DNA from: Nodosilinea sp. P-1105
GTDB lineage: Bacteria > Cyanobacteriota > Cyanobacteriia > Phormidesmidales > Phormidesmidaceae
DNA: 64,000 bases
Assembly (NCBI RefSeq): GCF_012911975.1
Contig: NZ_SMDQ01000021.1
Span: forward strand, 1 to 64,000
Reading direction: 5' to 3'
Below are positions 44,842 through 49,521 of this stretch, in pieces. The notes beneath the pieces were generated by a model. It did no database searches and was not told the origin of the DNA. It saw only the letters and a program-made list of their open reading frames with translations. A program made the position numbers and the translations under genes. Each line of letters begins with the position of its first letter. Position 1 is the stretch's first letter.

Positions 44842-44855
44842 TCTACCAAGCCGAG

Positions 44856-45196
44856 CTAAAACGCCGGTACAGATCCCAGCGGTTGACTAACGTGACTAAC
44901 GGCGGTGCCCTTCGATGGAGTAGGAGGAAACCTTGTAAGGGCGTTTCCTGGGGCTGGTGGGCAAAGCCCACCCTACGATCGGACGATCGGAGCACTGTTT
45001 CCTTAGGAGGGTTCTGCCCTAGGACGCCCCAAAACTCAGGGCTAATCAGCTTAAGGTGACTTCTAGGCAACTTTCTGCCGAGTGGTGAGCAATGCCCACC
45101 CTACGAAAATCACGATCGCTGACAACAAGCGGGATTGTCTTTCTCAGAAATCTCCTAAGAACCCTAGGACCTTGACATACTGCACTGATGCTCTAG
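44856..45196 (+). repeat. Family A element A2, enlarged by two internal insertions
   Basis: The ends match the 107-bp family A (CTAAAACGCCGGTACAGATCCCAG at left, given in part; CATACTGCACTGATGCTCTAG-like at right). The first extra segment is about 44880-45008 and the second is 45051-45158, which is a family B repeat. The right CTAG supplies the stop codon of the PAS sensor gene on the minus strand (45193-45195). Confidence 0.75.
45051..45158 (+). repeat. Palindromic repeat family B, copy B2, nested in A2
   Basis: The copy starts TTAAGGTGACTTCTAGG and ends CAGAAATCTCCTAAG. It is nearly identical to B1 over its right half, including ACAACAAGCGGGATTG. It interrupts the family A sequence just before the AAGAACCCT arm. 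Confidence 0.75.
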
Positions 45197-47361
45197 CTCC
45201 AAAACTCGTCTAGATTAACGTCAGCGATTTCCTGCTGCACTTCTTGGAAGTAGTTGCTCTCGGTTAGCATGGCGACTTCTCGCTCTCGCTTGGCCTGGTC
45301 AATTTCAATTTGTAAGTCTTCGAGTTGCTTCCTGAGATCTGCCTCTTGTCGCTTGCGATCGCTGATGTCCTGCACAATTCCTTCGTAATAGAGCACCTTG
45401 CCGCTGTTATCTTTCACCACCCGAGCGTCGATCTCAGTCCAGACAATGCTGCCATCCTTGCAATAGCAGCGGTATTCAAAGTTTTTGACGGCGTCCTGCT
45501 GTTCTATCAAACACTTAAACTCAGCTCGCTTTTCTGGATCGACATATAGTTGATCGCCAATGTTAGTCACACTGGCGATCAGTTCGGCGGGGGAATCGTA
45601 GCCGTAAATGTTGGCCAGGGCGGGGTTGGCATTGATGAACGCTCCCTGGGGGGAGGATTGGAAGATCCCTTCCAGGGCATTTTCAAAGATGCTGCGGTAG
45701 TTCTCTTCGGCAATGCGTAGGGCTTCTTCGGCCCGCTTGCGTTTAGTGATATCCCGCACCATGATCAAGACCTCATCCTCCCCCAGCACCAGAATACGCA
45801 CCTCTTCGTCCTGGGGTTGATCGCCCAGGCTAATCCGCTGTTCGTAGACCTGTAATTCCCCGGTGTCCAGGGCTTTTTGGATGTGGTGCATACGCAGGTC
45901 AGCCAGATCCGCAGGCAGGGATTCGTAGACCGTGTTGCCCGGGCTAAAGTTTTGCACCCCATGCACTCCCTGGAGGCGATCGCTGCCCACAATATCCAGA
46001 TAGGTGCCATCCCGTTTGGCTCGAATCAATAGGTCAGGAATGGCGGTCACAATGGCCCGGTTGGTGGCTTCGCTGTGGCGGAGGGCCTCAAAGGATGCCT
46101 GTAATTGGCCTGCCATCCGATTAAACGATCCAGCCAGGGTATCGACTTCAAGAATGGGGCTGGGGTCTACCTGTTGATCGAGATCCCCCTGGGCCACCTG
46201 ATTCGAGGTTTGAGCTACCCGCAGCAGCGGACGGGTCACCCAGCGGGAGGTGAGAACACCAATCCCAGTGACCCCCACTAGGGCCGCCAGGATGAGTCCC
46301 AGGGTTTGGCGCTGGCTGGCCTGGATTTGGGCCATAAAGTCAGACTCTGGGATGGTGAGCACCACCAGCCAATCGAGGTTGTTGTCTCGGAAAGGGACCA
46401 CCTGCACATATTGCCGGGTGCCGTTGAACTGAACGTCCAGCTGTTGAACTGATTGAATGGCTTCCCAGTCGCCAAACTGGCTGGCCAGGGCTGTGGCCGT
46501 GGCCCGAATGGTGTCATCCTGACTGGCGGTGGCCAGAATCCGTTCGCTGCTGTCGCCCCTGTCATCTACGGTGGGCGCTGTGGTTGAGGTGGCAATCAAT
46601 TGCCCCGATCGCTCCAGGATAAAGGCTGTACCCGTTTTGCCGATCTCCAGCTGGTTGAGGAAACTATTCACTTCCCGGGGCAAGAAAAAGTCGGCGGCAC
46701 AAACTCCGATCAGAGCCTCATCCTGGCGATTAAAAACGGGGCGACTGGCGGTAATCGTGGGAAATCCGGAGGCAAAGGCAATGTACACCTCGCTCCACAC
46801 ATCTTCACCACTGCGCTCAGCTGCCCCATACCACGGGCGCTCCCGGGGATCGTAGGGAGTATCCAGGGTACCGATCTGTTCGGTGCGATCGCCCCACTGA
46901 TCAAAGCTATAGTCTTGACGGATGAAGTTAGTTGAGGGGTTGCTAAAGTGCATCATCACCTCAGAGCCGTCGGCCCCAGCCGATCGACTGGCCCCAAAGA
47001 AGGCACCAGTTTCATCCCCACAGTAGACATAGCTGAGGGTGGGATAGATCTGCATTTGCTGCCAGAACTGATACTCCCCCCTGGGGTTACCGACATCAAT
47101 ATCCCCCTGGGCCATGGCACTGGCATTGAGCTGGTTGATGATCTTGGGTGCCTCGGTGTAATTGGCCAAGGTTTCGGTGATTCGATTGGTCAGTTCTGTG
47201 CGCAACTGGCTGGCCACATCGTTCACGGCCCGTTGGCCACTGCGATAGGCCAAAAACCCCACCAGCCCCACGGCGGCCATAATTTGCAAAATAAACGGTA
47301 CCACCAGGGTGGTGCGCAGGGGAAACTTATAGGGCCGCTGACCGCCGGGTCTACCAGTCAT
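45193..47361 (-). CDS. Membrane sensor with Cache, HAMP and two PAS domains, no output domain
   Basis: The 722-residue protein has a TM at about 20-40 and a large extracytoplasmic dCache-type domain (about 45-345, with [11 protein letters not shown] and [22 protein letters not shown]). A second TM (about 355-377) and HAMP (about 378-430) follow, then PAS (about 440-550) and PAS-PAC (about 560-685, ending [14 protein letters not shown]). A C-terminal coiled coil contains [20 protein letters not shown]. No kinase, cyclase or GGDEF domain follows, so it must signal through a partner. It overlaps the glutaminase gene by 11 bp. Its stop codon lies in the CTAG end of repeat A2. Confidence 0.87.
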
Positions 47362-48382
47362 TCAGGTCGTTGCCTCCAGCAATCCACTCGTTTATATCCC
47401 GTTCTGGTTTGGCAGCATTGAACACATGCAAGCCAAAATCCTTAGCTAAGTCTTCGCAGACTTTGATGCCTCGATAACTATTGCCCTTGGCATCCAGGGG
47501 TGGAGAAAACGTACCAATCCCCAACTGGCCAGGTACGACCGCCGTAATTCCGCCCCCCACCCCACTCTTGGCTGGCATGCCGACGCGATAGCACCATTCC
47601 CCAGAGGCATCGTACATGCCGCAGGTCAGCATGACGCTGATCACATCCTGGACATGGTGTTCGTCGATCGCCCGCTCTTGGGTGACTGGGTTGACCCCGC
47701 CGTTGGCCAGGGTGGCCGACAGCATGGCCAGGTCCCTGGCATTAACCATGATCGAACATTGTTGGAAGTAGAGATCCAGGGTTTCATCGATCCGATCGCT
47801 GATCATGCCAAAGTTGAGCATCAGATAGGCCATGGCCCGATTGCGAAAGCCGGTCGCTTTTTCAGATAAAAAGACGGGCACATTGATGTCATGCTCTCGG
47901 CCGGTGTAGCGCTGAAACATGGCCAGCACGCGCTTGAGGCGTTCGGTGGAGCTATGGCCTTTAATTAAGTCCGCTGTGGCGATCGCCCCGGCATTCACCA
48001 TCGGGTTATAGGGCCGATTAGTCACCTCATCCAGCACAATGGCATTAAACGCCTCCCCGGTGGGTTCAACGCTGACCTTGCTATTCACATAGTCCCGACC
48101 ATGGTCTTCCAGGGCCAAGCCAAACACAAATGCCTTGGAAATGGACTGAATGGTAAACAGTTGGTCGCAGTTTCCCACTTCAAACACCTGGCCCTCGGCG
48201 GTTACCACACAAATGCCAAACCACTCTGGTTTGGCCAGGGCCAACTCAGGGATATAGTCTGCTACCGCTCCATCATTGAGGCTCTGGTACTTGGCATGCA
48301 AATCATTGAGATAATTGCGAAAGGGGGAGGTGACCGCGGTGATTGAACTGGTGAGAGATTGCAAATCGCCTAAATCTGCCAT
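47351..48382 (-). CDS. glsA: Glutaminase A
   Basis: The 343-residue form starts at [13 protein letters not shown] (48382). The serine-dependent glutaminase motif [16 protein letters not shown] (about 76-91) carries the catalytic Ser-x-x-Lys pair. [24 protein letters not shown] and [14 protein letters not shown] also match the family. It converts glutamine to glutamate and ammonia. It lies 10 bp after the ParA-like gene and overlaps the sensor gene, so the three are one operon and probably translationally coupled. Confidence 0.95.
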
Positions 48383-48392
48383 GATGCTGCTC

Positions 48393-49145
48393 TTATAGAA
48401 TTTGTTGTGCAACGTTGCGAAATTCTTGACTGACCGGATGCTCTGGGTATTTAACGCAAAACACCCCTTCGCTAGCCAGTTGCACAATGTCTTCTGACAG
48501 TGGAAACACCCCGGCCACGGTCTCCCCGTAGGTGGCCTCGACTTTTTGTTTTAAGGCCTCTAGGTTGAGTTTGCTGTGCGCTTTGTTAATGGTCAGTAGC
48601 ATTTTGCGGACGTTCAGCTGGCGGGCTACATCCATGGTCACAGCGGTGCCCTGGTAATCTTGTTTGTCGGGGCGCAAGATTAACACCAGCACATGGGAAA
48701 TGGCAATGGATAGAAACGTTTCCTTCGATAGCCCCGGATGCGTATCAATGAAGAGGTATTCCAGCTCCAACCCTTTCACCAGGGAGCGGAAGCCATCGTT
48801 CATCAGCTTGACGTCGTAGCCGTCCTTCAAAATTCGGGCAATGTCATCGGCTTTCACACTGGAGGGAACCAGAAAAAGCCGCCCAGACTCGTCTAAACCA
48901 ATATTGGCACTGATATCGTACGCCGCATCCTGAATCGGACTTTCCCCCCAGAGATAGTTATTCAGGGTGATTCCCATCTGCTCGGGTTCGAGGCAAAACA
49001 AGTTGTGAATGCCTGGGGACGGCACATCGGTATCTATCACCCCAACCCGATGGCCTAAAGCAGCCACAGTGGCCGCTAAGTTGGCCGTAAAGTTCGACTT
49101 GCCTGTGCCCCCTCGGTAGGAGTGAATGGAAATCACCTTCGGCAT
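48393..49145 (-). CDS. ParA/MinD-family ATPase with variant Walker A
   Basis: The 250-residue protein begins [20 protein letters not shown]. This is a deviant Walker A in which the usual KGGxGKT reads RGGTGKS, so the signature lysine that contacts the partner subunit's phosphates is an arginine. Other ParA features remain: [36 protein letters not shown] and [11 protein letters not shown]. It is probably a cytoplasmic ATP-dependent positioning switch. No parB or partition site is nearby, and the operon partners are glutaminase and a sensor, so plasmid-type partition is unlikely. Confidence 0.85.
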
Positions 49146-49232
49146 GATGCTTTAACACCGCTGACAACATGAGCTAGCTTCTTGTACATCAACACAAAGT
49201 TATAAAGCAAGCATAAGCAAGCAGTCGAAAGG

Positions 49233-49339
49233 CTAGAACGCCGGTTCAGATCCCAGGGTTCTATCCCTGGATGCCCCAAAAATCGTGGCTAATCAGCCCA
49301 AGAACCCTGGGATCTTGACATACTGTACCGATGCTCTAG
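49233..49339 (+). repeat. 107-bp palindromic element family A, copy A3
   Basis: CTAG to CTAG, exactly 107 bp, with the same 14-bp inner stem as A1 (GATCCCAGGGTTCT). The outer stem shows one change (CGGTTCAG). Confidence 0.88.
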
Positions 49340-49395
49340 AGTATTGAATCGCTTGATAAAGAAGTCATCGAACTGTGACATAGGGCGGCGTTGGG

Positions 49396-49502
49396 CTAGA
49401 ACGCCGTTACAGATCCCAGGGTTCTGCCCTCGGATACCCCAAAATCCCTGGCTAACCAGCCCAAGAACCCTGGGATCTTGGCATACTGTACCGGTGCTCT
49501 AG
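49396..49502 (+). repeat. 107-bp palindromic element family A, copy A4
   Basis: CTAG to CTAG, 107 bp, 57 bp right of A3 and in the same orientation. The inner stem is intact. Confidence 0.88.
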
Positions 49503-49521
49503 GCTATGGTTGCTGGCTGAC

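Follow-up and report, generated by a model that had tools for sequence, protein, structure and literature searches.

The operon and its products

The window analysed here, a stretch of 64,000 nucleotides from the cyanobacterium Nodosilinea sp. P-1105 (RefSeq assembly GCF_012911975.1, contig NZ_SMDQ01000021.1, positions 1 to 64,000), carries on its minus strand three genes in the order ATPase, glutaminase and membrane sensor. The initial annotation had described them as a tight operon, and both the coordinates and the Pfam domains bear this out: 10 bp separate the ATPase stop from the glutaminase start, and the start of the sensor overlaps the end of the glutaminase by 11 bp. Judging from this spacing, the three proteins are presumably produced together. 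The wide and general association at this locus is that of the C-terminal tail of the sensor with the ATPase: in two phyla, the presence of the tail in a genome almost perfectly predicts that of the ATPase. The genes, and the nucleotide-binding loop of the ATPase, are as follows:

48393-49145, minus strand: MinD/ParA-like ATPase gene, 250 aa (MinD match and AlphaFold2 fold)
49095-49115, minus strand: RGGTGKS P-loop, ATPase residues 11-17, with R where ParA/MinD proteins have their signature lysine
47351-48382, minus strand: glutaminase gene (GlsA type), 343 aa counted from the ATG (Pfam, SISK motif at residue 80)
45193-47361, minus strand: membrane sensor gene, 722 aa (dCache_1, HAMP, PAS, PAS and tail)

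By sequence and predicted fold the ATPase is a relative of MinD. It has Pfam matches to ParA, CbiA and AAA_31, it matched MinD 1hyq among PDB sequences (E=2.6e-18), and its AlphaFold2 model (pLDDT 89.7) has the same MinD as its top PDB structure match (TM 0.81/0.87). The substitution of RGGTGKS for KGGxGKT that had been noticed in the P-loop is real, yet it is a property of the family and not peculiar to the Nodosilinea genome, as 114 of the 116 relatives aligned have R as their first P-loop residue and 105 carry the exact octamer RGGTGKSN; the second P-loop lysine is retained in 114/116. The ATPase does not have the deviant Walker A motif KGGxGK[T/S] with its signature lysine, and because R replaces that lysine we regard it as a divergent ParA/MinD relative and not as a canonical member. 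The canonical MinD of the Min system was ruled out by scores far under the cut-offs (NCBIfam minD_bact, 43.4 bits against 212.9; archaeal MinD model, 82.5 against 201.75). Also ruled out were the variant AAA ATPase with a KGGVGR motif (NF047398; 64.5 bits against a cut-off of 90, and Walker lysine kept, R at that position being a criterion that we took from the family name) and McdA, as the gene after the ATPase encodes a glutaminase and the ATPase has 250 residues. Six genomes (G427, G436, G463, G471, G495 and G503) carry two tandem ATPases, one 54-57% and the other 40-41% identical to that of the window, which possibly form heterodimers.

Pfam agrees with the initial annotation that the sensor consists of Cache, HAMP and two PAS domains without kinase or cyclase; the second PAS domain is recognised by TIGR00229, and at E<=0.01 Pfam found no kinase, cyclase, GGDEF, EAL or MCP signalling domain. 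The protein had further been said to end in a coiled coil. This description was incomplete: the AlphaFold2 model has a helix at residues 667-701, then a break, a helix at 703-714 and a short helix at 717-721 (moderate confidence, pLDDT about 60-80 and less at the final two residues). The name of output-less sensor is probably not deserved: the conserved C-terminal tail is the probable output.

46357-47229, minus strand: dCache_1 domain, residues 45-335 (Pfam), with the amino-acid motif residues inside
46096-46251, minus strand: HAMP domain, residues 371-422 (Pfam)
45733-46047, minus strand: first PAS domain, residues 439-543 (Pfam)
45334-45708, minus strand: second PAS domain, residues 552-676 (Pfam and TIGR00229)
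45196-45360, minus strand: C-terminal tail, the last 55 residues of the sensor, its core starting IEID; proposed ATPase docking tag

A C-terminal tail accompanies the ATPase in two phyla

The last ~55 residues are the most widely shared part of the sensor. Among sensors encoded in the third position the upstream domains are very diverse, the second PAS domain is present in most, and the tail in nearly all; the same tail also closes other proteins beside the ATPase (for example in loci L068, L046 and L054). In the window sensor it is matched by no Pfam model at E<=0.01, and a comparison with PDB sequences gave no real match (best E 0.28).

A profile made from 30 tails of ATPase loci (A1), which also finds unlinked tails, was run over 386 genomes of the phylum, with the ATPase scored as present at E<=1e-20. 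It detected the tail in 46 genomes and the ATPase was present in 54; all 46 tail genomes have the ATPase, and none of the 332 genomes without the ATPase has the tail. A broader profile of 72 rows (A3) placed the tail in 53 genomes. The ATPase is present in 52 of these; the match in the 53rd (G192), a 33-aa frame containing a stop, was discarded as spurious. Because A3 holds some degenerate tails picked for an adjoining ATPase (L158-L160, L167), the A1 result is the cleaner one for cyanobacteria. In this set, 39 of 72 tails lie within 10 kb of an ATPase, and the other 33 have none at that distance or are on a different contig. Since over 40% of the tails are unlinked, inheritance as an operon is by itself insufficient to explain the pairing. 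Seven genera are of mixed ATPase status (g8, g9, g18, g23, g36, g47 and g61), and in each, among the genomes listed, the tail tracks the ATPase. No frame among the ATPase neighbourhoods listed, to which the region of G360 and the weak second one of G170 do not belong, was labelled as both ATPase and tail.

The association was also found in 201 genomes whose Chloroflexota label was deduced from L058, which comes from a Chloroflexi bacterium (a metagenome-assembled genome, G386, with two tails that adjoin different copies of the ATPase). This result is an independent test, because A3 contains no Chloroflexota sequence: the tail was found in 26 genomes, the ATPase in 26 and both in 25, and 21 of 51 tails have no ATPase within 10 kb on their own contig.

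Tail charge varies with the type of ATPase

The type of tail goes with the type of ATPase. In a comparison that covered the tails of all 52 tail-bearing genomes except G342, acidic ends of the form (L/I/V)DEFW or closely similar to it were found in 6/6 genomes with an ATPase at least 65% identical to that of the window and in 0/45 others, and three genomes (G143, G011 and G368) contain both kinds of ATPase and both kinds of tail. When the 33 ATPases of the clade linked to glutaminase were set against 73 others, 14 positions proved clade-specific, including (glutaminase clade/others) 140 S/N, 141 K/E, 144 F/L, 151 H/D, 161 K/Q and 180 R/P. Residues 140-151 come after the Walker B motif, a region which we take to lie near the partner-binding face of MinD.

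48723-48725, minus strand: codon for residue K141 of the ATPase, which is specific to the clade (mostly E elsewhere) and covaries with the charge of the adjacent tail

Charge was computed over the last 14 tail residues of 76 adjacent ATPase-tail pairs (12 residues for the window pair, whose charge is -4 either way). Tails beside an ATPase with K at residue 141 have a mean charge of -3.75 (n=32, range -6 to 0), and those beside an ATPase with E a mean of +3.2 (n=41, range -2 to 6). Among the rarer states, two tails next to R141 carry -1 and 0, and one next to F141 carries +4; at L109, where a K141 ATPase stands outside the glutaminase clade, the tails carry 0 and -1. A swap of this kind is what a charge-complementary contact between tail and ATPase would give, though few independent evolutionary events underlie it.

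It could be argued that the tail has no connection with the ATPase and serves as a helix for dimerisation or signalling, and that the two co-occur through joint transfer or a shared genome preference. The tail does come after PAS and HAMP domains, like ordinary signalling helices, and many of the pairs are neighbours (39/72 within 10 kb). This explanation nevertheless has to face the lack of A1 tails in all 332 genomes without the ATPase, the replicate in Chloroflexota, the unlinked position of over 40% of the tails and the covariation of their charge with residue 141, and we consider it very improbable. That the tail docks on the ATPase is instead quite likely, in our estimation, and is the most secure step of the relay proposed below.

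Carriers of the tail

The tail is carried by proteins of many kinds. Among 75 tail proteins (weak tails with E up to 0.2 included, and domains counted for the 25 commonest of 33 families), HAMP was found on 33, CHASE2 on 17, dCache_1 on 16, PAS_9 on 16 and the Tll0287-like domain, described in the available part of PMC12889525 as a Cache domain with c-type heme, on 9; FHA, cNMP-binding, GAF, protein kinase, HisKA and response regulator domains occur on 2-3 each. The eight Chloroflexota proteins scanned show the tail also at the end of GAF, cNMP-binding, CHASE3-HAMP and PrsW-cNMP proteins. Such variety matches a pattern of many inputs and a single hub, although a handful of carriers bring their own outputs.

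The main rival to signalling is positioning, in which the ATPase would be a spatial organiser and the tail an address tag that clusters or distributes receptors (here also the glutaminase), the sensors signalling in some other way or serving as anchors. It fits the MinD fold of the ATPase, the presence of one tag on many different proteins, the existence of a few tail proteins that have a kinase output themselves, and the way in which known ParA/MinD partners bind, by a short, charged terminal stretch on which cargo specificity depends (available part of PMC10241942). The domains on tail proteins are, however, mostly sensory and varied, and some are soluble (GAF, cNMP-binding), which is a better fit to input into a common hub than to a shared cargo, and some genomes have 4-7 tails. 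The same docking is common to both readings, and positioning of receptors and enzyme strikes us as rather unlikely.

In the Chloroflexota loci L256 and L257, tail-ending cNMP-binding proteins adjoin the ATPases, PrsW-family protease domains lie in or next to them, and at L257 a cyclase-domain gene is found in the vicinity, an arrangement that hints at cyclic-nucleotide input into the same ATPase hub. A cyclic-nucleotide output is a separate idea: tail, ATPase and cyclase or cNMP-binding neighbours would together make up a cAMP pathway, with the ATPase in an accessory role. Although cNMP-binding proteins or cyclases are near several ATPases or bear the tail themselves, and a cyclase occupies the sensor slot at L066, the window operon has neither a cyclase nor a cNMP-binding domain, and cNMP-binding domains are present on only 3/75 tail proteins; we would give this idea little chance.

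The Nodosilinea genome (G000) has a second tail protein on contig C122 (L170:5011-6162, plus strand), of 383 aa, with a HAMP domain and the ending LQVDEFWQ; it sits between a large Ig-like-domain protein and a large WD40-repeat protein, and the contig has no ATPase match. A PAS protein near the end of contig C181 (L200:51-1538, minus strand), in which only the first half of the tail is recognisable (profile positions 1-24), is probably a broken copy. In Nostocaceae and relatives (L059-L064) a CHAT-domain protein adjoins the ATPase (one scanned, five alike by clustering), and at L059, L060 and L064 a DUF928 gene and a CHASE2-cluster protein with degenerate repeated tails are close by. A protein of ~100-130 aa, winged-helix-like by eye and often ending near IWDKL or IWSALDEKL (e.g. 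L118:6549-6896, L254:5358-5696, L058:1154-1507), is encoded no more than 4 kb from the ATPase in 13 loci, and a profile found it in about 22 loci (L037 and the duplicate L253 dropped). None of its loci has a linked glutaminase, the single one scanned was blank in Pfam, and it could be a further effector of the ATPase hub. The neighbours of other ATPase clades look mixed and include DNA ligase, ABC transporter, 4-alpha-glucanotransferase, CHAT and outer-membrane efflux proteins.

The glutaminase branch

The sample consisted of 37 loci with named records plus regions from further genomes. In 35 loci the ATPase shares at least 65% identity with that of the window, and the 28 of these with at least 4.5 kb of sequence downstream of the ATPase were used for counting the trio. 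A glutaminase lies downstream in 25 of them (at L039 as fragments only), a tail protein is encoded somewhere in the locus in 26, and both are present in 23, and the trio can thus be called a conserved unit in relatives. All 30 glutaminase-linked ATPases fall inside one clade of 34 members (SH-like support 100, FastTree), and no ATPase of less than 65% identity adjoins a glutaminase among the neighbourhoods listed. As the glutaminase gene itself is present in 113/386 genomes, the linkage characterises a single ATPase clade, and we rejected the trio as the core unit since the glutaminase is linked in only 6/54 ATPase genomes. Rare co-occurrence, which had been named as the outcome that would speak against a common module, is what the glutaminase displays over all ATPases, but not the sensor-ATPase pair, nor the trio within the clade. 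The proposal of one signalling or localisation module remains plausible, with the unit kept in 23 of 28 loci; it is the emphasis that has to move, as the general pair is that of tail and ATPase (46/46 genomes, and Chloroflexota too).

The enzyme matches PF04960 over its full length (E=5e-123, 410 bits against a cut-off of 27) and TIGR03814 with 369 bits (cut-off 255). Together with these scores, SISK at residue 80 places it in the glutaminase family, SxxK being, as we take it, the catalytic motif of GlsA-type glutaminases.

47354-47419, minus strand: glutaminase C-terminal extension, residues 322-343, ending NDW; proposed docking motif

In linked glutaminases this extension typically reads FNVAKPERDLxxWIAGGDGINDW. 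A terminal Trp was found in 28/30 ATPase-linked glutaminases (in one of them with one residue more), the exceptions being L050 and L067 (which ends DF), and in 0/21 unlinked glutaminases of a first comparison, L201 included; L289 and L292 are one and the same gene, and so are L291 and L305. Glutaminases with 75-81% identity to that of the window also occur in six genomes of genus g31 and in G145, none of which has an ATPase match; these enzymes retain part of the extension but not the terminal Trp. In the glutaminase tree (L164 and L290 left out, midpoint root beside the long branch L108, and L301 passing a loose last-two-residue Trp rule) the g31 and G145 lineages stand among linked sequences, with support of 83/74 for one branch and 98/84 for the other, and the state 'unlinked' requires 3 changes. 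The end of the sensor tail, LDEFWS, and that of the enzyme, NDW, are alike, and both go with an ATPase bearing basic substitutions. The Nodosilinea genome also contains a second, unlinked glutaminase.

The glutaminase could instead be a co-transcribed metabolic neighbour, supplying nitrogen or glutamate and making no contact with the ATPase, even if the partnership of tail and ATPase holds. Its confinement, when linked, to one ATPase clade and its ordinary-looking catalytic motif (SISK) are compatible with such a role; the Trp-ending extension, specific to linked glutaminases and altered in two ATPase-less lineages, is not what it would lead one to expect, and we see it as a doubtful alternative. 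We consider a docked partner of the ATPase a somewhat better than even description of the glutaminase. Locus L164 (G111:C112:87276-88418) contains, in a single frame, fragments of an ATPase (residues 29-172) and of a glutaminase (45-286), and alongside it a convergent tail protein ending LDQFWS plus one residue. As the ATPase part has no P-loop, we took this frame for a deletion remnant and set it aside as evidence of a fusion.

A possible relay from receptor to enzyme

The available part of the literature on the dCache domain of PctA gives Y121, R126, W128, Y129, Y144 and D173 as its amino-acid-binding residues (PMC11245519, PMC10104139). The sensor has counterparts of all six (Y170, R175, W177, Y178, Y193 and the D of GVCAAD, located by pattern and spacing without structure superposition) and therefore has the residues that define the amino-acid sensor family dCache_1AA. 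The full motif is present in nine other tail proteins of glutaminase loci (L038, L040, L044, L046, L047, L055, L065, L067 and L103); at L033, F replaces the first Y, and at L036 and L051 the D was missed by the pattern used. Because all six published residues are present, we lean towards an amino acid as the ligand, which agrees with a glutaminase as partner.

The operon may thus be one branch, that with a linked glutaminase, of a wider system. Its receptors, mostly without a classical output, would dock on a cognate ATPase of the MinD-fold RGGTGKS subfamily through a C-terminal tail made up of a coiled-coil helix, a break and a short helix. The extracellular dCache domain would bind an amino acid, and the change would be relayed through HAMP and PAS domains to the tail, whose acidic DEFW end would contact a basic patch of the ATPase (K141, H151, K161 and R180). 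The ATPase could also hold the glutaminase by the Trp-ending extension, and either recruit it to the receptor or change its activity, so that glutamine breakdown would be tied to an amino-acid signal from outside. The co-occurrence, the conservation of the tail, the charge swap, the C-terminus of linked glutaminases and the ligand-motif residues are read directly from the sequences. From them we infer physical docking, the single residue patch, the direction of the signal, the ligand and the effect on the glutaminase. As a whole, a system in which tails dock on the ATPase and the ATPase here couples a predicted amino-acid sensor to a glutaminase is the reading we favour, if by a modest degree of belief.

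Several observations weigh against this reading. The Fisher P for co-occurrence, about 1e-51, ignores phylogeny; A1 leaves eight ATPase genomes tail-less, A3 leaves G087 and G360, both with divergent ATPases, and in three more mixed genera (g16, g45 and g55) the tail tracks the ATPase only with A3, which includes some of those tails. Among Chloroflexota, G509 has only the tail (a partial match), and in G578 the ATPase stands alone. Inspection of the data preceded the choice of the DEFW pattern, of the 65% cut and of the residue-141 test. For the charge swap, the main basis is a single split of the ATPase tree plus a few intermediates, its P-values ignore phylogeny, and poor fits are L167 (E, -2), L110 and L127 (both E, 0) and L056 (K, 0). 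Some tail proteins have outputs of their own (HisKA and response regulator in 3/75, protein kinase in 3/75), and in a Geitlerinema locus (L066:8252-10669) the sensor slot is taken by a tail-less dCache-HAMP-PAS protein with a class III cyclase; a tail protein is present in that genome beyond the examined locus. L041, L054 and L068 have no glutaminase, and the L105 locus encodes no tail protein. The argument from the glutaminase ending has behind it only two independent losses, and one of a further 11 unlinked glutaminases, L301, ends AFWM. The amino-acid motif overlaps residues common among dCache_1 domains, and it was not seen in L050, L052 and L104, which are sensors in the same position.

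Many bacterial sensors are annotated as output-less, and the tail common to a large set of proteins that are mostly of this sort, which in two phyla predicts one ATPase subfamily almost without fail, offers a concrete and cheaply testable candidate partner. If the relay is real, MinD-type ATPases would act as the response element of membrane receptors, beyond the placement of cargo, and in this branch a glutamine-degrading enzyme would answer to an amino-acid receptor with neither kinase nor transcription factor in between. The pairing of tail and ATPase suggests an undescribed way for signals to pass into the cell. More tentatively, and with odds that we put somewhat short of even, it may define a separate class of transmembrane signalling in at least two phyla, in which a tail on about ten kinds of input domain switches a dedicated MinD-like ATPase hub that controls an effector particular to each branch (the glutaminase in this operon, different neighbours at other loci), and in which the charge of the tail and ATPase residue 141 determine specificity.

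Sequences around the operon

A dispersed intergenic repeat is found on both sides of the operon (window positions 45008-45196, 49231-49344 and 49394-49507, with a further piece at 44855-44879), in pieces of up to 114 nt that are 79-92% identical, and the stretch downstream of the operon contains a short direct repeat (44955-44978 and 45083-45106). The anti-phage models of PADLOC gave weak partial P-loop matches for the ATPase and none for the other two proteins; with no model matched in full, a defence system was dropped as a candidate identity of the operon.

Relation to known systems

ParA-like ATPases position chemoreceptor arrays, as in the ParC-ParP and PpfA-TlpT pairs. These are similar to the present system in that a ParA-like ATPase is tied to sensory proteins, and different in that the window sensor has no MCP signalling domain and most tail proteins have no known output. 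ParC and PpfA are both named in the available part of a survey of the family (PMC10241942), according to which ParA/MinD partners use a short, charged stretch at the N-terminus to bind their ATPase. The ATPases served by ParB, MinE, McdB and ParC/ParP have the same fold and belong to the same P-loop family as that of the window, and their partners are likewise recognised by a short charged terminal segment, specific between paralogues in one cell (same part of PMC10241942). Unlike in those systems, the segment proposed here is C-terminal and present on many different receptors, the signature lysine is replaced by R family-wide, and one of the proposed partners is a metabolic enzyme.

McdAB, which positions carboxysomes in cyanobacteria, shares the MinD/ParA fold, and Cyanothece McdA (6non) is among the structure matches of the ATPase. 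The available part of PMC8262871 reports that type 1 beta-McdA proteins have no signature lysine, a precedent for the RGGTGKS ATPase, and that McdB proteins have an invariant C-terminal Trp. In contrast to McdAB, the operon has no McdB-like protein, and an ATPase of 250 aa is too short for the mid-protein extension of type 1 beta-McdA. The Trp of McdB is needed for association with the carboxysome, its cargo (PMC11321042), and does not mark ATPase binding there, which adds to the points against our reading of the Trp-ending extension.

The window enzyme resembles other GlsA-type glutaminases in its full-length PF04960 match and SxxK motif, and differs from them in the conserved C-terminal extension of ATPase-linked copies, which ends in Trp, mostly after an acidic residue. 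We found no account of a tail-ATPase system in the open-access literature searched (including the available part of PMC1592074), a search in which subscription papers are mostly outside and the tail itself is not searchable by meaning. To our knowledge, a mostly output-less receptor family that shares a tail, together with an enzyme of matching end, is apparently undescribed, while ParA/MinD ATPases with partner peptides are of a known kind.

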